From Solwaraspora sp. WMMD791 (GTDB lineage: Bacteria; Actinomycetota; Actinomycetes; Mycobacteriales; Micromonosporaceae), in NCBI RefSeq assembly GCF_029581195.1, contig NZ_CP120737.1, forward strand, positions 5,247,001 to 5,311,000: a stretch of DNA of 64,000 nt. Direction: 5' to 3'. This document shows, in pieces, positions 2-15,133 of the stretch. The number at the start of each line of letters is the position of its first letter. The stretch's first letter is position 1. The notes under the pieces are model-generated. The model did no database searches and was not told the DNA's origin. It saw only the letters and a list, made by a program, of their open reading frames with translations. The position numbers and the translations under genes are program-made.

Positions 2-778
2 GACCGGGCCGACCGCTACCCCGACGACCGGTTCGACGGGTCGGGTGGCCGCTTCGACGGCCCCGACCCGAGGGGCGCGCGGGACGCCTCCCGGTTCGAC
101 GCGCCCGTGTCGGGTGCCCGGTCGCCGGACGAACCGCCATGGCGCGACGCCCGCTGGGACCAGCGGGCGCCCGACGTGGCGGACAGCCCTGGTCCGCGCC
201 GTGCCGCGCTGCCGGCGCTACCGGCCGGCAGCAGCGCCGAGGTCACGCCCTGGTCGTCCGGCGTACGGGAGGTGGCCGACGCCGAACCGGTGCGCCGCAG
301 CCGTCGCTACCGTGACGACGACGAACCTGGTCGTCGCTACCGCGACGACGATGAGTCCGGCCGGCGCTACCGGGCCGACGACCTCGACGGTGGCCGCTAC
401 CGGGCCGACGACCTCGACGGTGGCCGCTACCGGGCCGACGACCTCGACGGTGGCCGATACCGGGCCGACGAACCGGGCGGGCGCTACCGCGCCGACAGCG
501 GCCGGGACTTCCGTGGCGAGCCCGACGGCGGCCGGCGCTACCGGGCCGACGAGTTCGACGGCGGCCGGTACCGCGACGACGGCGACGCCGGTCGCCGCTA
601 CCGGGACGACACCGGCCGGGACCTGCACGACGATGCGGGGCGCGGCTACCGGGACGACGGCGGGCGCGGCTACCGCGACGACGGCTACGCCGACGACGGG
701 CGGGGCCGCTACGGCGACGACGGGCGGGGCCGCTACCGGGACGACTACGAGTACTCCGAGGACCGTCGACGGCGCTAG
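2..778 (+). CDS. Arg/Asp/Tyr-rich repeat protein (5' partial)
   Basis: The frame is already open at base 2 and ends at the TAG at 776-778, so the true start lies before the window and 258 residues are visible. Almost all of it is low-complexity sequence made of RYRADD and RYRDD blocks with alternating acidic and basic residues, including a perfect triple decapeptide RYRADDLDGG near residues 122-151. I see no membrane segment, signal peptide or known domain. It looks intrinsically disordered and very strongly charged. An internal GTG at 107 could start a shorter form, but the same composition runs on upstream of it. The gene converges on nuoD with only 7 bases between the stops. I do not recognise its function. 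Confidence 0.7.
   Translation, partial: DRADRYPDDRFDGSGGRFDGPDPRGARDASRFDAPVSGARSPDEPPWRDARWDQRAPDVADSPGPRRAALPALPAGSSAEVTPWSSGVREVADAEPVRRSRRYRDDDEPGRRYRDDDESGRRYRADDLDGGRYRADDLDGGRYRADDLDGGRYRADEPGGRYRADSGRDFRGEPDGGRRYRADEFDGGRYRDDGDAGRRYRDDTGRDLHDDAGRGYRDDGGRGYRDDGYADDGRGRYGDDGRGRYRDDYEYSEDRRRR
365..454 (+). repeat. 30-base tandem repeat, 3 perfect copies, in frame
   Basis: The unit begins CGCTACCGGGCCGACGACCT and repeats at 365-394, 395-424 and 425-454. A degenerate fourth copy follows. It encodes RYRADDLDGG three times, so copy-number change would keep the reading frame. Confidence 0.95.
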
Positions 779-785
779 CCCGACC

Positions 786-1976
786 TCACTTGTCGATGTC
801 ACCGACCACGAAGAACATCGACCCGAGGATCGCCACCAGATCCGGCACCAGGCTGCCCGGGATCAGCGTCGCCAACGCCTGCACGTTGGCGTACGAGGCG
901 GTCCGCAGCTTGAGCCGCCACGGCGTCTTTTCGCCCCGGGACACCAGGTAGTAGCCGTTGACGCCGAGCGGGTTCTCGGTCCAGGCGTACGTGTGCCCCT
1001 CGGGTGCCTTGACCACCTTGGGCAGCCGGACGTTCACCGGCCCGGTCAGCTGGTCGACCCGGTCCAGGCAGCGGCGGGCCAGATCGAGGGAGACGTACAC
1101 CTGGTCGAGCAGGACCTCGAACCGGGCATGGCAGTCGCCGGTGCGCCGGGTGACGACCGGGACGTCGAGCTCACCGTAGGCGAGGTACGGCTCGTCGCGG
1201 CGCAGGTCAAGGTCGAGCCCGCTGGCCCTTGCCACCGGGCCGGACGCGCCGAACGCGGCGGCGGTGGCGGCGTCGAGCACCCCGACGCCGACCGTACGGG
1301 CGAGGAAGATCTCGTTGCGCCGGATCAGCCGGTCCAGGTCGGGCATCCGCGCCTCGACCTGGCCGATGGCCTCCCGGGCCCGGCGGGTCCAGCCGGCCGG
1401 CACCTCCTCCTTGAGGCCGCCGACCCGGTTGAACATGTAGTGCATCCGCCCGCCGGAGACCTCCTCCATGACGGTCTGCAGGGTCTCCCGCTCCCGGAAC
1501 GAGTAGAACACCGGAGTGAGCGCCCCGATCTCCAGTGGATACGAGCCGAGGAACATCAGGTGGTTCAGCACCCGGTTCAGCTCGGCCAGCGCGGTCCGCA
1601 GCCAGACGGCCCGTTCCGGCACCTCGATGCCCATCAGCCGCTCGACGGCGAGCACCACGCCGAGTTCGTTGCCGAATGCCGACAACCAGTCGTGCCGGTT
1701 CGCCAGCATGATGATCTGGCGGTAGTCGCGCACCTCGAACAGCTTCTCGGCACCCCGGTGCATGTAGCCGACGATCGGCTCACAGGAGACCACCCGCTCG
1801 CCGTCGAGGACCAGCTTGAGGCGGAGTACGCCGTGTGTGGACGGATGCTGCGGGCCGATGTTGAGCACCATGTCGGCGGTGTCCAGCCCGGCACCCGTGC
1901 CGACGGTGACCTGACGGAGCCCGGCTGCCGGGTCGGCCACGGGCAGCGAACCGGTCTCGGTGTCCATGCCGGTCAT
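786..1976 (-). CDS. nuoD: NADH-quinone oxidoreductase subunit D, stand-alone second copy
   Basis: This 396-residue protein is the 49-kDa/NuoD subunit of respiratory complex I, which forms part of the quinone pocket next to iron-sulfur cluster N2 on the cytoplasmic side. The motifs GPQHPSTHG (41-49), HRG (73-75) and the typical C-terminus ending in GDIDK are present. No other nuo gene is nearby, so this is a stand-alone copy like the nuoD2 genes of streptomycetes. The start was chosen at ATG 1976, which overlaps the stop of the upstream methyltransferase gene (ATGA). A second ATG lies 9 bases downstream. Residue 97 is Trp where the quinone-binding Tyr of complex I (bovine Tyr108) is expected, in RHDW instead of RxDY. 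The identity as a NuoD family member is certain; whether it works in complex I is not. Confidence 0.95.
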
Positions 1977-3115
1977 CGTGCCATGTCGTCCCCGCCCTCG
2001 TCGGCCAGCAGCGCGGCGGCCGCGTCGGTGGCCGGCGGCGGCCCGTCCACGTCGGCCGGCAGCGAACCGTCCTCGGCGGTCAGGCCGACGGGTTGCAGCA
2101 GCCACCAGTGCGCGCCCAGGCCGTACGGGTCGGTCAGTTCGGCGGCGGTGCCGGCGGCGGACAGCGCGGCGAGGTAGCCGCGCGGGTCGCTGCCGGCCAG
2201 GGTCAGCGGCGGCCGGGCACCGGACACGCCCAGCGTCCGCAGGACGTCGCGTTGACGGCGCAGCAGATGACCGGCGCCACCGGCGGCGACGGTGCCGGCG
2301 GCGGCCACCGCGTCGATCGCCACGTGGGCGGTGATGTCGCAGGAGCCGTCGGGTATCGGGGCCACGGTCCGACCGGACCGGTAACCGGTCAGCGTGCTGG
2401 CGGTGGGGCGTTCGGCGTACCGGTGGCCGTAGTCGACGGCGACCGCGACGCCCCGCCGCAGCGTCCGGACGGCCTCGGCCCAGGCCTCGTCGCGGGCCCG
2501 GCCGAGGTCGGCCCGGCCGTCGTCGGGCAGCGCCGGCCACCACCGGGCCAGCCAGGCGGCGTCGGCGTCGGTGAGCGGGTCGCCGGGCCGCTCGGCACCG
2601 GTGACCGGGTCGACCAGGCCGTACCGCACCGCGCCGTCGACCCGCACGGCCAGATCCAGCGGTACGTTGTCCAGCCATTCGGTGGCGACGAGCAGCCCGA
2701 CGACCCCGGTCGGGAAGGTGGCCTGCCAGCCGATGTCGGTGGCCAGCCCGGCGGGTCGGTCGGCGTGGTCGACGCCGATCAGCCGGAGCCGTCCGGCGAG
2801 CGGCCGCCGGTCGCCCGGTGCGGGGCGACCCCGGTCCCGCCCTGGCCGATCCCCGTCCGGCCGTGGTCCGGTCAGTTCGTGGACGGCGGCGAGCAGTTCG
2901 CCGCCCCCGGCACCGACGTCGACCAGGTCGAGCGGGTCGGGGTGGCCGAGCAGCCGGTCGACCCGGGTCAGCAGCCGCAGCACCGCCGTGGCGAACGGCA
3001 CCCCGCTCTGGGCGCTGGTCCGGAAGTGCGCCGCCGGCACCGGCGGGTCCCCGGCCCGGTAGAAGCCCTGCGGACCGTAGAGCGCCCGGGTCATGGCGGC
3101 CCGCCAGGTCAGCAC
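1973..3115 (-). CDS. SAM-dependent methyltransferase, MidA/NDUFAF7 (DUF185, COG1565) family
   Basis: This 380-residue protein shows the features of the MidA family: N-terminal ALYGPQGFY and HFRTS, a SAM-binding motif [11 protein letters not shown] (65-75), and [10 protein letters not shown] followed by VDYGH. The human member NDUFAF7 dimethylates an arginine of NDUFS2, the homologue of NuoD. Here the gene is followed directly by nuoD with a four-base ATGA overlap, so enzyme and probable substrate are translationally coupled. The start GTG at 3115 gives the family N-terminus; ATG 3094 is a shorter alternative. A 115-base gap separates it from the divergent DUF2520 gene. Family assignment is by motif recall; the NuoD substrate is inferred from family knowledge and coupling. 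Confidence 0.85.
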
Positions 3116-3230
3116 CCGGCCAACCCTAGTCGACGGGGGTGAAGGTTTTCACACACCATGTTTCGGCCGTGTGGCGGCGGCGCATACTGGGCATCGACCG
3201 GTACCCCCGTTTCGAGGACTGGATCACGTT

Positions 3231-4178
3231 ATGAGCGCATTGGCGCGCCCGGCAGCGGACGTCTCCGCCGACCGGGACATCGGCCCCGCCGTCGGGGTCA
3301 TCGGCGCCGGACGGGTCGGCGTGGTGCTCGCCGCCGCCCTCGCCGCCGCCGGCTACCGGATCACCGCCGTCTCCGGTGACAGCCCGACCAGCCGACAACG
3401 GACCGCCCGGATGCTGCCCGGTGTGCCGCGTCGGCCGGTCCCCGCTGTGCCGGCCACCGCCGACCTGCTGATCCTGAGCGTGCCCGACGACACCCTGCCC
3501 GGCCTGGTGGCCGAGCTCACCGCCCGGCAGGTGCTGCGAACCGGTCAGGTGGTGGCGCACACCTCGGGCGCGTACGGGCTCGGGGTGCTCGCGCCGGTGG
3601 AGCGTGCCGGGGCCGTCGGGCTGGCACTGCACCCGGCGATGACCTTCACCGGGCAGCCGGAGGATCTCGACCGGTTGCCCGGCATCAGCTACGGCGTCAC
3701 CGCGCCGGCATCGCTGCGGGCCCTGGCGCAGCGGCTCGTCGCCGATCTCGGCGGCAGCGTCGAGTGGGTCGACGAGGCCGACCGTCCGCTGTACCACGCC
3801 GCGTTGGCACACGGTGCCAATCACCTGGTCACCCTGGTCAACGAGGCCGCCGACCGGCTGCGCGACGCCGGGGTCGGTGACCCGGCGAAAGTGCTGGCGC
3901 CGCTGCTGCGGGCGGCCCTGGACAACGCGCTCGCGCAGGGCGACGCGGCGCTGACCGGGCCGGTGTCGCGCGGCGACGCCGGCACCGTCGCGCGGCACGT
4001 CGACCGGCTGGCCGGGACCGCGCCGGAGAGTCTGCCGAGCTACCTGGCGCTGGCCCGGCGGACCGCCGACCGGGCGATCGCCGCCGGCCGGCTGTCGGCC
4101 GGCGACGCCGTACCGCTGCTCGACGTGCTGGCCGGCCGGGACACCGCCGCCGCGGCGCGTCGGGAGTGGGCGCGGTGA
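3231..4178 (+). CDS. Rossmann-fold oxidoreductase with DUF2520 domain, beside panC
   Basis: The 315-residue protein has an N-terminal NAD(P)-binding motif GVIGAGRVG near residues 22-30 and a helical C-terminal half (DUF2520) with LHPAMTFTG and HGANHLVTL. It resembles 6-phosphogluconate/ketopantoate reductase-like enzymes. The M. tuberculosis equivalent Rv3603c also precedes panC-panD. The gene runs into panC with a GTGA overlap. A role as ketopantoate reductase in pantothenate synthesis is attractive from the context but remains inference. ATG 3231 was chosen because the Rossmann motif follows at the usual distance and no longer start fits the family. A possible promoter (TTTCGG 3161-3166, CATACT 3183-3188) lies upstream. 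Confidence 0.85.
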
Positions 4179-4204
4179 GTGCGTCGGGAGTGGGCGCGGT
4201 GAGT
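4157..4204 (+). repeat. 24-base perfect tandem duplication over the DUF2520/panC junction
   Basis: The unit starting GCGTCGGGAGTGGGCGCGGT occupies 4157-4180 and again 4181-4204. It contains the TGA stop of the upstream gene and the GTG start of panC, so panC has two identical in-frame GTGA contexts at 4175 and 4199, eight codons apart. Confidence 0.9.
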
Positions 4205-5104
4205 GCGTCGACGACGGCCGGCCTGCAGGTCGCCTGGACCCGTGCCGAGCTGGCCGCCGTGCGTTCCGGCTGGACCGGATCGGTGGCCGTGGTGATGACG
4301 ATGGGGGCGCTGCACGACGGGCACGCCGCCCTGCTGCAGGCGGCCGTGGCCCGGGCCGACCACGTCATCGTGACGATCTTCGTCAACCCGCTGCAGTTCG
4401 GCCCGACCGAGGATTTCGACCGCTATCCGCGCACCATCGACGACGACCTGGAGATCTGCCGGAAGGCCGGGGTCGGGCTGGTGTTCGCGCCGGGCCGGGC
4501 CGAGATCTACCCGGACGGCGAGCCGATGGTCCGGGTGAATCCCGGACCGGTCGGCGAGACGTTGGAGGGGGCGAGCCGGCCCGGCTTCTTCCACGGCGTA
4601 CTCACCGTGGTGCTCAAGCTGCTCCAGCTGACCCGCCCCGATCTGGCCTTCTTCGGCGAGAAGGACTACCAGCAGCTGACTCTGGTCCGGCGGATGGTGC
4701 GGGACCTGGACCTTCCGGTGGAGATCGTCGGGGTGCCGACCGTCCGGGAGACCGACGGGCTGGCCCGGTCGAGCCGTAACCGGTACCTGTCCCCGTCGCA
4801 ACGGCAGACGGCGCTGGGGCTGGCCGTGGCGTTGCGGGCCGGGGCGGCAGCGGCCGACGCCGGAGGTGACGCCGCCGAGGTGGTGGCTGCCGGCCGGGCC
4901 GCCTTCGACCAGCACACCGCCGGTGCCGCCGAGCTGGACTACCTGGTGTTGACCGACCCCGACCTGGCCCCGCCGGTGGCCGGCCCGGCCCGGCTGCTGA
5001 TCGCGGCCCGGGTCGGTGCGACCCGGTTGATCGACAACTCGCCGGTGGACCTGAGCGGCCCCCGACCCGACCTGCAGTCCGGCCCGCGATCGGAAGGACC
5101 CTGA
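4175..5104 (+). CDS. panC: pantoate--beta-alanine ligase
   Basis: Pantothenate synthetase condenses pantoate and beta-alanine with ATP in the cytoplasm, the last step to vitamin B5. The 309-residue protein has the nucleotide-binding MGALHDGH (43-50), [19 protein letters not shown] and SSRNRYLSP motifs. The start is taken as GTG 4175, overlapping the DUF2520 stop; an identical GTG at 4199 comes from a 24-base duplication and would remove the first eight residues (MSASGVGA), which are not conserved. The stop overlaps the panD start (TGATG at 5102-5106). The three genes therefore form one translationally coupled unit for pantothenate synthesis. Confidence 0.97.
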
Positions 5105-5550
5105 TGCTGCGCACCATGCTCAAGTCGAAGATCCACCGGGCCACGGTGACCCAGGCCGACCTGCACTACGTCGGCTCGGTAACCGTCGACGCCGATCTGC
5201 TCGACGCGGCGGACCTGCTCCCCGGTGAGCAGGTCGCCATCGTGGACGTGACGAACGGGGCGCGGCTGGAGACGTACGTCATCGAAGGTGCCCGGGGCAG
5301 CGGCGTGATCGGCATCAACGGTGCCGCCGCCCACCTGGTGCACCCCGGCGACCTGGTCATCCTGATCGCGTACGGGCAGTTCACCGACGAGCAGGCGCGG
5401 GCCTTCAGCCCCCGGGTGGTACACGTCGACGCCGCCAACCGGGTGATCCAGTTGGACGCGGACCCGGCCGGCGCTCCGGTCGGCCTGGTCGGCGACCCGG
5501 TACGCGGTGATCGGGCCGTCGGCTGGCCGGCGGTTGCCGCCACGCCGTAG
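5104..5550 (+). CDS. panD: aspartate 1-decarboxylase proenzyme
   Basis: PanD makes beta-alanine from aspartate for PanC. The 148-residue proenzyme has the canonical self-cleavage site Gly24-Ser25 (YVGSVT), where Ser25 becomes the pyruvoyl cofactor, plus Lys9, and NGAAAH near residues 72-77. The C-terminal tail of about 20 residues beyond the usual end is rich in Gly, Pro and Val and probably flexible. ATG 5104 overlaps the panC TGA. A weak hairpin (GTGGGAC 5552-5558 with GTCCCAC 5578-5584) follows the stop. Confidence 0.97.
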
Positions 5551-6652: not shown

Positions 6653-8347
6653 ATGCTCGTGCCTACCCCGGAACTGCCCGCCCTGCCGGGCCGGCTCGCC
6701 GCGCCGCAGCCCGGTTGGGCGGAGACCACCGACGTGGTGGTCGTCGGCTCCGGGATCGCCGGTCTGACCGCCGCGCTCTACCTGCGGGAAGCCGGCCTGC
6801 ACGTCACCGTCGTGACCAAGGTCAACATCGACGACGGCTCCACCCGCTGGGCGCAGGGCGGGATCGCCGCCGTGCTGGACCCGCTGGACACTCCGGCCGC
6901 GCACGCCCAGGACACCGAGGTCGCCGGCGTCGGCCTCTGCGACCGGGACGCGGTCCGGACCCTGGTGGAGGAGGGGCCGGCCCGGATCCGTGAGCTGATC
7001 CGGGTCGGTGCGGAGTTCGACCGCGACGCCGCCGGCATGCTGCTGCTCACCCGGGAGGGCGGGCACCGGGCGAACCGCATCGTGCACGCTGGCGGCGACG
7101 CCACCGGTGCCGAGGTGCAGCGGGCGCTGCACGCGGCGGTCCGCCGGGACCCGTGGATCCGCCTGGTGGAGCACGCCCTGGTGGTCGACCTGCTGCGGGC
7201 GGCCCCGGAGCGCGCCGGGGCACCGGGCGCGGCCTGTGGGGTCACCCTGCACGTGCTCGGCGAGGGCTCCCCGGACGGGGTCGGGGCGATCCTGGCCCGG
7301 GCCGTGGTGCTGGCCACCGGCGGGATGGGGCAGATCTTCGCCACCACCACCAACCCGGCGGTCTCCACCGGCGACGGGGTGGCTCTCGCACTGCGGGCCG
7401 GCGCGGTCGTGGCCGATCTGGAGTTCGTCCAGTTCCATCCCACCGCACTGGCGGTGCCCGGCGGGGCCGGTGGCAGCGGACAGCAGCCGCTGGTCTCCGA
7501 GGCGCTGCGCGGCGAGGGCGCCCACCTGGTCGACCCGGACGGCAAACGGTTCATGCTCGGCCAGCACGAACTCGCCGAGCTGGCCCCCCGGGACGTGGTC
7601 GCCAAGGGCATCCACCGGGTGATGGTGGCCAACGACAGCGACCACGTCCATCTGGACGCCCGGCATCTGGGCGCCGAGTTCCTGGACCGGCGCTTTCCGA
7701 CCATCGTCGCCTCCTGCCGGGCCGCCGGCATCGAGCCGGCGCAGGCGTTGATCCCGGTCGCGCCGGCCGCGCACTACGCCTCCGGCGGCGTCCGTACCGA
7801 CCTGCACGGCCGGACCAGCATCCCCGGCCTGTACGCCTGTGGCGAGGTGGCCTGCACGGGGGTGCACGGCGCCAACCGGTTGGCCAGCAACTCGCTGCTG
7901 GAAGGGCTGGTGTTCGCCCGGCGGATCGCCCGGGACATCGCCCGTCAGCTGCCCGCCCAGCGGGATCCGGCCGGGTCTGGGGCCGACCCCGGTGCCGGTT
8001 CCGGGTGGGTCGTGGCGGCGACCGCCCGGCAGCCGTTGCAGCGGGCGATGAGCCGGGGCGCCGGGGTACTGCGGTCGGCGGCCACCCTCGACGGCGCGGC
8101 GACCGCGCTGCGCGCCGCGGCCGCCGTACCGGGTGTGCCCGGCACCGCCGACTGGGAGACGACTAATCTGGTCACCGTCGCCACCGCGCTGGTGGCGGCG
8201 GCGTACGCCCGGCAGGAGACCCGGGGTTGTCACTGGCGTGACGACTTCCCCGATGCCGACGAGGACTGGCTGGGACATCTGGTGAGCGGTCTCGGCTCCG
8301 CCGGAGCGCCCACCCTGACCTGGGAGCCGTCATGCGCAGCGAGCTGA
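6653..8347 (+). CDS. nadB: L-aspartate oxidase
   Basis: NadB is the FAD enzyme that oxidises L-aspartate to iminoaspartate, the first step of de novo NAD synthesis. The 564-residue protein shows the FAD-binding VVVGSGIAGL (28-37), STRWAQGGIAA, the active-site region EFVQFHPTAL, and the C-terminal GEVACTGVHGANRLASNSLLEG. The start ATG 6653 fits the family; an upstream extension has no ribosome-binding site. The last 16 bases overlap nadC. The partner gene nadA (quinolinate synthase), usually adjacent in actinobacteria, is not in the window. Confidence 0.97.
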   Translation: MLVPTPELPALPGRLAAPQPGWAETTDVVVVGSGIAGLTAALYLREAGLHVTVVTKVNIDDGSTRWAQGGIAAVLDPLDTPAAHAQDTEVAGVGLCDRDAVRTLVEEGPARIRELIRVGAEFDRDAAGMLLLTREGGHRANRIVHAGGDATGAEVQRALHAAVRRDPWIRLVEHALVVDLLRAAPERAGAPGAACGVTLHVLGEGSPDGVGAILARAVVLATGGMGQIFATTTNPAVSTGDGVALALRAGAVVADLEFVQFHPTALAVPGGAGGSGQQPLVSEALRGEGAHLVDPDGKRFMLGQHELAELAPRDVVAKGIHRVMVANDSDHVHLDARHLGAEFLDRRFPTIVASCRAAGIEPAQALIPVAPAAHYASGGVRTDLHGRTSIPGLYACGEVACTGVHGANRLASNSLLEGLVFARRIARDIARQLPAQRDPAGSGADPGAGSGWVVAATARQPLQRAMSRGAGVLRSAATLDGAATALRAAAAVPGVPGTADWETTNLVTVATALVAAAYARQETRGCHWRDDFPDADEDWLGHLVSGLGSAGAPTLTWEPSCAAS

Positions 8348-9237
8348 CCGCCGGGCCGGTCGACGGCGACCTCGACCCCGTCGTGGTCGAGCGGGTGGTG
8401 GCGACCGCGCTCGCCGAGGATCTCGGTCCGGCCGGGTTGGACGTGACCACGGCCGCGACGATCGACGCCGACCAGATGGGCACCGCCGAGCTGGTGGCCC
8501 GGGCCGACGGGGTGGTGGCCGGGCTGGCGCTGGTCGCCGCCGTGTTCGACGCGGTGCCGTCGCCCGGTACGCCGGTCGAGGTGCGGTTGCACTGCCGCGA
8601 CGGTGACCGGGTGCCGGTCGGTACGGTGCTGGCCTCGGTGACCGGGCCGGTCCGGACCCTGCTGACCGGGGAACGGACCGCGTTGAACCTGATCAGCCGG
8701 CTGTCCGGGATCGCCACCCACACCCGCGCCTGGGCCGACGCGCTGGCCGGTTCGACGGCGACCGTGCTCGACACCCGCAAGACCACCCCGGGGCTGCGGG
8801 CGTTGGAGAAGTACGCGGTGCGCGTCGGCGGCGGCGGCAACAAGCGGATGGGCCTGTTCGACGTGGCGATGGTCAAGGACAACCACAAGCTGGCTGCCGG
8901 CGGGGTGGGGGCGGCGTACCGTCGGGTCCGCGCGGCGTTCCCGCAGGTGCCGGTCGAGGTCGAGGTGACGACGCTGGCCGAGGCGGTGGAGGCGGTGGCG
9001 GCCGGGGCGACGTTCCTGCTCTGCGACAACATGCCACCGGAGCTGCTGCGGGAGGTGGTGGCCGCCGTCGGCGACCGTGCCGAGTTGGAGGCGACCGGGG
9101 GGTTGACGCTGGCCAACGCGGCGCGGTACGCGGCGACCGGGGTGGACTACCTGTCGGTGGGGGCGCTCACCCACTCTTCGCCGATCATGGACATCGCCCT
9201 GGACCTGCGGCCGGCCGCCGACGGGCCGTCGCGCTGA
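8332..9237 (+). CDS. nadC: nicotinate-nucleotide diphosphorylase (carboxylating)
   Basis: Quinolinate phosphoribosyltransferase converts quinolinate and PRPP to nicotinate mononucleotide. The 301-residue protein has the expected EDLG..DVTT start region, ERTALNLISRLSGIAT, the catalytic DTRKTTPGLRALEKYAV, and GGGGNKRMGLFD followed by KDNHK. ATG 8332 lies inside the end of nadB, so translation is coupled. coaX follows after 17 bases, which places NAD and CoA precursor genes in one transcription unit. Confidence 0.97.
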   Translation: MRSELTAGPVDGDLDPVVVERVVATALAEDLGPAGLDVTTAATIDADQMGTAELVARADGVVAGLALVAAVFDAVPSPGTPVEVRLHCRDGDRVPVGTVLASVTGPVRTLLTGERTALNLISRLSGIATHTRAWADALAGSTATVLDTRKTTPGLRALEKYAVRVGGGGNKRMGLFDVAMVKDNHKLAAGGVGAAYRRVRAAFPQVPVEVEVTTLAEAVEAVAAGATFLLCDNMPPELLREVVAAVGDRAELEATGGLTLANAARYAATGVDYLSVGALTHSSPIMDIALDLRPAADGPSR

Positions 9238-9254
9238 CTGGCCGGGAGGACGAC

Positions 9255-10013
9255 ATGCTGCTCTGCATCGACATCGGCAACACCAACACGGTGCTGGCCA
9301 CCTTCGCCGGCGACAAGCTGGTCCACTCGTGGCGGATCAAGACCGACGCCCGGTCCACCGCCGACGAGCTGGGCCTGATGTTCCGTGGGCTGCTCGCCGG
9401 GGACGCGGTGGAGATAACCGGGGTGGCGGCCTGCTCGACGGTGCCGGCGGCGCTGCGGTCGCTGCGGTCGATGCTGGCCCGCTACTACGGGGACATCCCG
9501 AGCGTGATCGTGGAGCCGGGGGTGAAGACCGGCGTGCAGCTGGCGATCGACAACCCCAAGGAGGTGGGCGCGGACCGGGTGGTGAACACGCTCGCCGCGC
9601 ATTGCCTGTACGGCGGTCCGTCGATCGTCGTCGACTTCGGCACCACCACGAACTTCGACGTGATCAGTGCCCGGGGGGAGTTTCTCGGCGGCGCGTTCGC
9701 GCCGGGTATCGAGATCTCGTTCGACGCGTTGGCGGCCAGGGCCGCGCAGCTGCGTAAGGTCGAACCGACCCGGCCCCGGTCGGTGATCGGCAAGAACACG
9801 GTGGAGTGCCTGCAGTCGGGCATGTACTTCGGTTTCGCCGGTCAGGTGGATCGCATCGTGGAGCGGATGTCGGAAGAGTTGGGGCAGCTCAGCGCGGTCA
9901 TTGCCACTGGCGGGCTGGCGCCGGTGGTGATCGGCGAGTGCCGGACGATCACCCACCACGAGCCCATGATCACCCTGATCGGCCTGCGGATGGTGTTCGA
10001 GCGCAACACCTGA
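9255..10013 (+). CDS. coaX: type III pantothenate kinase
   Basis: CoaX phosphorylates pantothenate, the first and controlling step of CoA synthesis from the product of panC/panD. The 252-residue protein has the ASKHA-fold phosphate loop CIDIGNTNT (4-12), the GADRVVNTLAA motif and VDFGTTTNFDV. GGGAGGAC gives a strong ribosome-binding site before ATG 9255. It is encoded just downstream of nadC and upstream of lysS, as in mycobacteria. Confidence 0.97.
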   Translation: MLLCIDIGNTNTVLATFAGDKLVHSWRIKTDARSTADELGLMFRGLLAGDAVEITGVAACSTVPAALRSLRSMLARYYGDIPSVIVEPGVKTGVQLAIDNPKEVGADRVVNTLAAHCLYGGPSIVVDFGTTTNFDVISARGEFLGGAFAPGIEISFDALAARAAQLRKVEPTRPRSVIGKNTVECLQSGMYFGFAGQVDRIVERMSEELGQLSAVIATGGLAPVVIGECRTITHHEPMITLIGLRMVFERNT

Positions 10014-12406: not shown

Positions 12407-12523
12407 CGCCGGAGCCTCGGGGAACAGCCGGCGAGGCGGCACAGTTGGGTTAAACGTTGCGGATCGCCCCTGCTCCGGCCAGACACGGCAGGAGCGGAGT
12501 CGGTCCACGGCGATAGAGTGATG

Positions 12524-12551
12524 GCACGAGCTTCCACCTGGAGGCTCGTGC
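12524..12551 (+). promoter_or_regulatory. hairpin in the clpC leader
   Basis: GCACGAGC (12524-12531) pairs with GCTCGTGC (12544-12551), and TCCA (12533-12536) can pair with TGGA (12539-12542) inside. It lies about 50 bases before the clpC start and could be an operator or a leader hairpin. The rest of the 12321-12601 stretch shows no gene. Confidence 0.4.
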
Positions 12552-12601
12552 GCTGGCCCCGCCACGATCAATGGCGCACGGCACGTGAGGAGCACGAGGG
12601 C

Positions 12602-15133
<2,532 letters not shown>

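Follow-up and report, generated by a model that had tools for sequence, protein, structure and literature searches.

NuoD2 of Solwaraspora sp. WMMD791, probably a displaced D subunit of a second, N-module-less complex I, and its MidA-type neighbour

RESULTS

The nuoD2 locus

The window, i.e. the whole 64,000-nucleotide stretch of DNA that was analysed, carries a nuoD-type gene, nuoD2, next to a gene for a MidA-type methyltransferase. NuoD2 is probably the displaced D subunit of a second complex I (Nuo2) that has no N-module, is fed by ferredoxin with a KorAB-like enzyme as the donor, and is modified by MidA. Cluster membership, lineage, residue pattern and the association with MidA and KorAB can be read from the sequences, and from these we infer the donor and acceptor of Nuo2, its methylation and its pumping. 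The features of the locus are as follows.

786..1976, minus strand: nuoD2, assigned as the D subunit of Nuo2; 396 amino acids; PF00346, E = 1.5e-71
1973..3115, minus strand: MidA/NDUFAF7-type methyltransferase (Methyltransf_28); 380 amino acids from GTG; PF02636, E = 2.5e-13
1973..1976, minus strand: ATGA stop/start overlap of midA and nuoD2, seen in the sequence
1686..1688, minus strand: codon TGG for W97, at the position of the quinone-binding Tyr (Thermus Y87)
1755..1757, minus strand: codon CGG for R74, the Arg of the HRGxE motif (R85 in human NDUFS2, R121 in Yarrowia) and the putative MidA target
1833..1835, minus strand: codon CAC, H48 (Thermus H38), the other quinone-coordinating residue, kept
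3231..5550, plus strand: divergent neighbours, comprising a Rossmann-like/DUF2520 protein (3231-4178), panC (4166-5104) and panD (5104-5550)

NuoD2 matches PF00346 (Complex1_49kDa) with 241 bits in two stretches that cover most of the protein, with profile positions 172-196 missing. PDB matches in phmmer reach E = 5.4e-80, and the NCBIfam scores fall above the cut-off for NF004739 (377 of 360 bits) and below that for TIGR01962 (387 of 459 bits). An earlier note on this DNA had pointed to the four-base overlap of the two genes, which lies at 1976-1973, to an Arg kept at position 74 and to Trp97 in place of the quinone-binding Tyr. The substitution is borne out by the phmmer alignments, in which W97 stands opposite Tyr in all five structures shown, gap-free there; in Thermus Nqo4 the residue is Y87.

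MidA belongs to its family by the PF02636 match and by the family profile: the single sequence found no relative in the PDB, and a profile of 18 MidA rows matched three PDB sequences, including the NDUFAF7 homologue 5ztz (E = 9.2e-27). In our judgement, the ATG at 3094 is a likelier start of midA than the GTG at 3115. Scans of positions 700-3400 found no promoter and one weak terminator-like site. The neighbouring panC recurs in the fetched span at 57 of 80 named loci, which come from Micromonospora, Actinoplanes, Salinispora, Streptomyces, Kitasatospora, Actinomadura, Nonomuraea, Kribbella, Knoellia and others and may overlap the other genome sets counted below. On the other side of nuoD2, positions 2-778 (plus strand) hold the end of an open frame with RYRADDLDGG-like repeats and 30-base tandem repeats at 365-496.

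A second complex I in the same genome

NuoD, NuoH, NuoB and NuoA are each encoded at two places in the 6.93-Mb genome, with the window NuoD split into two matches in the genome-wide NuoD search. The usual nuo operon (Nuo1) lies near 4.16-4.17 Mb. A further cluster on the minus strand at 3.88-3.89 Mb has the set B-C-H-I-J-K-L-M-N, and no A, D, E, F or G was found within it. Its genes follow in the order NuoB2, a DUF2252 protein, NuoC2, NuoH2, a long protein without a Pfam match, NuoI2, J2, K2, L2-N2 and an M48 peptidase, where L2, M2 and N2 are three antiporter-type subunits named by order and K2 is named by PF00420. NuoA2, named by PF00507, is found at 5.549 Mb, divergent from a pair of genes of the 2-oxoacid:ferredoxin oxidoreductase families. 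We label this pair KorAB by family match, which implies no substrate; the alpha subunit scores above the family cut-off (652 of 483 bits) and the beta subunit just below it (254 of 262 bits). The genome thus holds an A, B, C, D, H, I, J, K, L, M, N set without E, F and G, spread over three places. Because the second cluster has no D and the other NuoD copy sits in the main operon, the window NuoD is the only one left for Nuo2. A lone NuoD without partners is therefore ruled out by the second NuoH, NuoB and NuoA places and the Nuo2 cluster, so that the description "stand-alone" in the earlier note holds for the position of the gene and fails for the subunit, whose partners are encoded elsewhere in the genome.

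NuoH2 aligns to NuoH1 over its length with few loop gaps, and NuoL2 and NuoM2 keep the Glu and Lys columns common to Nuo1; NuoN2 lacks two Lys present in NuoN1, a point against the proposed reading of Nuo2. Considering that NuoH2, the pump subunits and the NuoB2 core are all present, the suggestion of a non-quinone NuoD is unsupported for this genome. In the fetched region of this cluster (L011), the Pfam-less protein (7999-9696) and the DUF2252 protein (12467-13786) interrupt the nuo genes; a DUF2252 gene between B2 and C2 also occurs in G204 (L220).

Residues at the quinone site and cluster N2

Residue counts were taken from 73 NuoD rows minus three (a 30-residue duplicate in G321 and distant homologues in G324 and G388), with the full G321 row moved by hand from D1 to D2 (D2 score 377, D1 score 122). 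At the W97 column, all 59 D2 rows have Trp and all 11 D1 rows have Tyr; at the R74 column, the same two sets have Arg and Thr, respectively, without exception. His is found at H48 in 58 of the 59 D2 rows. Both R74 and W97 are present at all 80 named loci, and they stay constant, as do the Fe-S ligands, across sequences with an overall identity of 45-89%. A sequencing error at W97, which the earlier note had allowed for, is thereby ruled out. The main-operon NuoD of the same genome has Thr and Tyr at the two sites, in agreement with the proposal that the window protein is a specialised form.

Trp can stack and form hydrogen bonds, but it cannot donate a proton as Tyr does, which means that either proton delivery or the chemistry differs in Nuo2. 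A group of complex I enzymes with Trp for the quinone-binding Tyr is thus a natural test of models in which this Tyr is the proton donor.

The Arg at position 74 of D is matched by a reciprocal change in the B subunit. In 15 of 15 Nuo1 clusters, D carries Thr and B carries Arg, whereas D carries Arg and B carries Thr in 22 of 22 Nuo2 loci, which come from 21 genomes (G010 being counted twice and one further locus having no B in its span); for one set, the patterns were taken from 18 of 20 regions, leaving out L210 and L211, the latter misplaced by the pattern search. The B-subunit column is presumably that of Thermus R83, by hand-counted spacing to the next cysteine and Thermus numbering. The Thermus D subunit has Thr at the R74 column. 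Papers are cited here from those parts of their text that were available: one describes the dimethylated HRG Arg of Yarrowia NDUFS2 (R121) and a Thermus B-subunit Arg, given in a figure legend as R83, as sharing one space beside N2 (PMC8042128). Given the reciprocal pattern, D2 fits B2 better than B1; the swap, which may be one ancient difference and not many events, distinguishes Nuo1 from Nuo2 by single residues and is consistent with MidA going with D2. Since Thr occupies the site in all 15 Nuo1 clusters, NuoD1 cannot be the MidA target there. A third combination, Arg and Tyr in D with Thr in B, is seen in 11 of 11 nuo clusters elsewhere in the phylum (L200-L207, L209, L217, L218).

Position and spread of D2

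Of 13 regions from other classes of the phylum, 12 have the D2 orthologue inside a cluster of the order A-B-C-D-H-I-J-K-L-M-N, with no E, F or G between the genes; in the thirteenth (L054), no nuo neighbours were found. As W97 is present even where D2 sits inside the cluster, the Trp is not a matter of stand-alone position. In each of six regions from close relatives, D2 is located away from the cluster and MidA is close by, and at all 80 named loci B2, A2, H2 and KorA are absent from the span. A tree of 70 D rows, comprising D2 and D1 rows and none of the Arg/Tyr type, unites 32 displaced D2 in one group with a support of 100/100. Together, the tree, the close-relative regions and the named loci suggest that all class members have the displaced D2, and that D2 and MidA probably moved out of the cluster to a place next to the pan genes in an ancestor of the class.

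D2 was found at 70% identity or more in 56 of 197 class genomes (two partial; among the matches listed), and NuoH2 at 62% or more in 51 of these 56 (one in pieces), as opposed to 2 of 141 others; the NuoH2-positive list includes G313, whose match is in pieces (E = 4e-77). A broader count, judged by eye as one-piece matches reaching residue 395-396, gives 86 D2-positive genomes among the matches listed, including two strong partial matches, with G407 and G427 (40% identity) borderline. All co-occurrence statistics for D2, NuoH2 and MidA ignore kinship among the genomes. In 14 sampled genomes of another family of the same order (f2), NuoD1 is present and no D2, NuoH2-type or MidA match is among those listed.

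Association with MidA

A PF02636 match is present in 74 of the 86 D2-positive genomes and in 5 of the 111 others of the 197 class genomes, among the D2 matches listed (Fisher p = 8e-35, kinship ignored). Four of the five MidA-positive genomes without D2 are at most 80% complete. Of the 12 D2-positive genomes without a PF02636 match, again among the D2 matches listed, two yielded MidA by tblastn (G312, at a contig end, and G460). At 76 of the 80 named loci, MidA is within the span; in 27 it immediately precedes D2 on the same strand, at a distance of up to 300 bases, and in 22 the two genes are convergent within this distance. No MidA was found at L131, which has full flanks, or at L148, L159 and L173, which have a contig end on one side. 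Judging by gene content, MidA goes with D2 within the class, and so does W97, the co-occurrence that the earlier note had proposed to check. In other classes, a weak MidA match directly follows NuoN2 in three complete clusters out of 12 (L058-L060), and the other nine have no MidA in the span; L214 is a further other-class case with a MidA match.

Human NDUFAF7 dimethylates Arg85 of NDUFS2, as the earlier note stated and the available text confirms (PMC3829151). By analogy, MidA would symmetrically dimethylate R74 of NuoD2. Conservation of R74 does not prove methylation, because the counterpart Arg of E. coli is present and is described as not dimethylated (PMC8042128).

Association with KorAB

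At the fetched loci, KorAB-like genes are divergent from A2 or B2 in 11 of 18 NuoH2-positive regions and absent from the remaining 7, three of whose contigs end there. Among 21 loci with a reduced gene set or cut by a contig end (see below), 13 have KorAB-like genes, one more has a remnant, and 7 have none. No KorAB was found in the span of the other-class Nuo2 clusters. To our knowledge, M. tuberculosis has no Nuo2, which counts against a coupling of KorAB to Nuo2. The species has KorAB, and the KOR paper of 2009 states in its available part that the physiological acceptor of the enzyme could not be identified (PMC2773412). In S. coelicolor, SCO4594 is named an alpha-ketoglutarate ferredoxin oxidoreductase (PMC8981147) and SCO4599-4608 are named NADH dehydrogenase genes (PMC9739823); going by the gene numbers, the two are near each other. 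The gene association suggests that KorAB may feed electrons to Nuo2.

A mechanism can be outlined on this basis. KorAB would oxidise a 2-oxoacid and pass low-potential electrons to NuoI2, via ferredoxin or directly, from where they would move over N6a/N6b to N2 in NuoB2. Menaquinone would be reduced at the D2/B2/H2 site, with Trp in place of Tyr, and H2 and J-N2 would pump protons. MidA would dimethylate R74, the Arg beside N2 that is contributed by D in Nuo2 and by B in Nuo1.

Relatives with a reduced gene set

The expectation that D2 always accompanies a full Nuo2 proved wrong, as 35 of the 86 D2-positive genomes have no NuoH2-type match (among the D2 matches listed). A NuoB2 search of 26 such genomes revealed at least two NuoB places in 25; in G460, one place only and no second NuoB was found. 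The 20 second-NuoB regions that were fetched all contain B2 and C2, and 18 contain I2 (L118 and L119, cut by contig ends, stop first; L119 keeps A2). No Nuo2-type H or J-N was found in their span, J-N being read at the loci. Most of 18 further regions are Nuo1 operons or distant homologues, and only L085, from G062, has a reduced Nuo2; these 20 regions and G062 make up the 21 reduced NuoB loci. In one genome, G354, the loss of NuoH2 may be an assembly gap.

The reduced proteins retain the residues that hold the clusters. NuoB2 keeps the N2 cysteines in 20-21 of 21 rows and has the Nuo2-type Thr in 21 of 21, and NuoI2 keeps its eight Cys in 19 of 19. The reduced D2 has W97 and R74 in 21 of 21 and H48 in 20 of 21, and 52 of 74 conserved columns are kept in at least 19 of the 21 rows. 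Reference columns were defined on 24 full-set and Nuo1 rows, with one residue shared by 95% or more of them. In reduced NuoB2, S52 is kept in 6 of 21, W54 in 6, D76 in 7, R79 in 8, R90 in 6 and Q91 in 3; several of these lost residues, we assume, face the quinone or NuoH.

On the D tree, the NuoH2-less label requires three changes (G062; G309 with G431; and a group of 18), of which the starred branches force at least two. We read the three changes as losses, which would make them a case of how a respiratory complex can shrink while its Q-module is kept. The placement of the group of 18 may be distorted by its long branches, which may also partly reflect relaxed selection. G062 has an in-frame NuoH2 of 123 residues (a full NuoH2 has 314) between NuoC2 and NuoI2 (L085:10930-11301; PF00146, E = 9e-12), possibly an intermediate that shrank by internal deletions before loss.

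Genomes that lack NuoH2 still carry D2 and MidA, so that D2 is not tied to the full complex, and a non-quinone role is possible in these relatives. Tentatively, and with less confidence than for the window genome, we suggest that a pump-less NuoB2-C2-D2-I2 electron-transfer enzyme, coupled to KorAB and matured by MidA, evolved repeatedly in actinomycetes and passes electrons from 2-oxoacids to an acceptor other than the membrane quinone. Judged by the retained residues, such an enzyme would keep the N6a, N6b and N2 ligands and the Trp/His/Arg pocket of D2, and would have lost NuoH and the proton pumps.

Relation to known systems

A second set in Streptomyces, nuoA2, B2, D2 and H2-N2, is already in print (PMC3765725, PMC8388888). 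It likewise has no N-module and is contiguous except for a separate nuoD2; the available text of these accounts names no nuoC2, MidA, KorAB, Trp or reduced relatives, and proposes instead that subunits are exchanged with complex I. The 11-subunit complex I (PMC11238625) also lacks E, F and G and has ferredoxin as a proposed donor, but it is from strict anaerobes, and the partners proposed there are PFOR, hydrogenase and ferredoxins. The mitochondrial NDUFS2/NDUFAF7 pair (PMC3829151, PMC8042128) shares the HRGxE Arg beside N2 and a MidA-type methyltransferase; it differs in having Tyr at the quinone site and in being NADH-driven, and methylation is demonstrated there and putative in Nuo2. The M. 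tuberculosis 2-oxoglutarate:ferredoxin oxidoreductase (PMC2773412) is, by families, an enzyme pair of the same kind as the KorAB described here. In one paper, as far as its text was available, NuoBCDI denotes part of a Chloroflexi complex. Titles and abstract openings of the literature searched contained nothing matching the Trp variant, a second complex I of actinobacteria or a reduced NuoBCDI, and the available texts, few of them from subscription journals, did not describe the Trp, the MidA-D2 or KorAB-Nuo2 association, the reduced sets or, for this group, the D/B Arg swap. Two published gaps meet in this system, as the direct electron donor of the 11-subunit complex I is described as still a question (PMC11238625) and the physiological acceptor of KorAB as not identified (PMC2773412); the KorAB-Nuo2 gene association makes both testable in Streptomyces.

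Alternative explanations

NuoD2 could be an isoform of NuoD1, able to take its place in the main NADH-driven complex I under certain conditions, given that the D1 and D2 types coexist and that Nuo2 antiporter subunits have been suggested to be perhaps incorporated differentially into complex I in Streptomyces (PMC3765725, PMC8388888). The Arg swap argues against such an exchange, because NuoB1 already supplies the Arg at N2 and D2 would add a second one (15 of 15 Nuo1 clusters versus 22 of 22 Nuo2 loci). The genome also has a dedicated NuoB2 and NuoC2, and D2 lacks PF00346 positions 172-196, so that we consider the isoform very unlikely. Even more improbable is that W97 abolishes quinone reduction and leaves D2 as a mere structural or regulatory remnant. 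A review does call the Tyr strictly conserved and essential (PMC8119997), yet a remnant would hardly show the conservation of W97, R74 and the Fe-S ligands described above. The SCO4599-4608 proteins are also reported to reach much higher levels in S. coelicolor than in S. lividans (PMC9739823), although this support is uncertain, as the available text of the presumed source proteome paper names SCO4562-75 instead (PMC8981147).

A different possibility is that what has been conserved is a soluble Q-module (B2, C2, D2, I2), which carries electrons from KorAB to a non-quinone acceptor in the D2 cavity, with the pump as an optional addition and both modes kept in the window genome. The NuoH2-less state on three branches of the D2 tree speaks for it, as do the reduced sets, in which NuoB2 keeps its cluster cysteines and mostly loses the six residues listed above, NuoI2 and the D2 pocket are retained, and KorAB adjacency continues. 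However, the window genome has NuoH2 and J-N2, the acceptor is hypothetical, the long branches could mean relaxed selection, the loss of J-N was read at the loci, and no second NuoB was found in G460. We therefore regard the soluble module as unlikely to be the conserved unit, and favour the assignment of NuoD2 to the N-module-less, ferredoxin-fed complex I.

Further observations on Nuo2 loci

An M48 peptidase closes the Nuo2 cluster (L011:188-1177 and other Nuo2 loci) and still adjoins the reduced set at 7 of 21 loci (L085, L100, L102, L104, L109, L115, L117). NuoI2 has a ninth conserved Cys (CPxxC) adjoining the first cluster motif (e.g. L011:7212-7817), present in 13 of 13 full rows and 19 of 19 reduced rows; the residue is Ala in 11 of 11 NuoI1.
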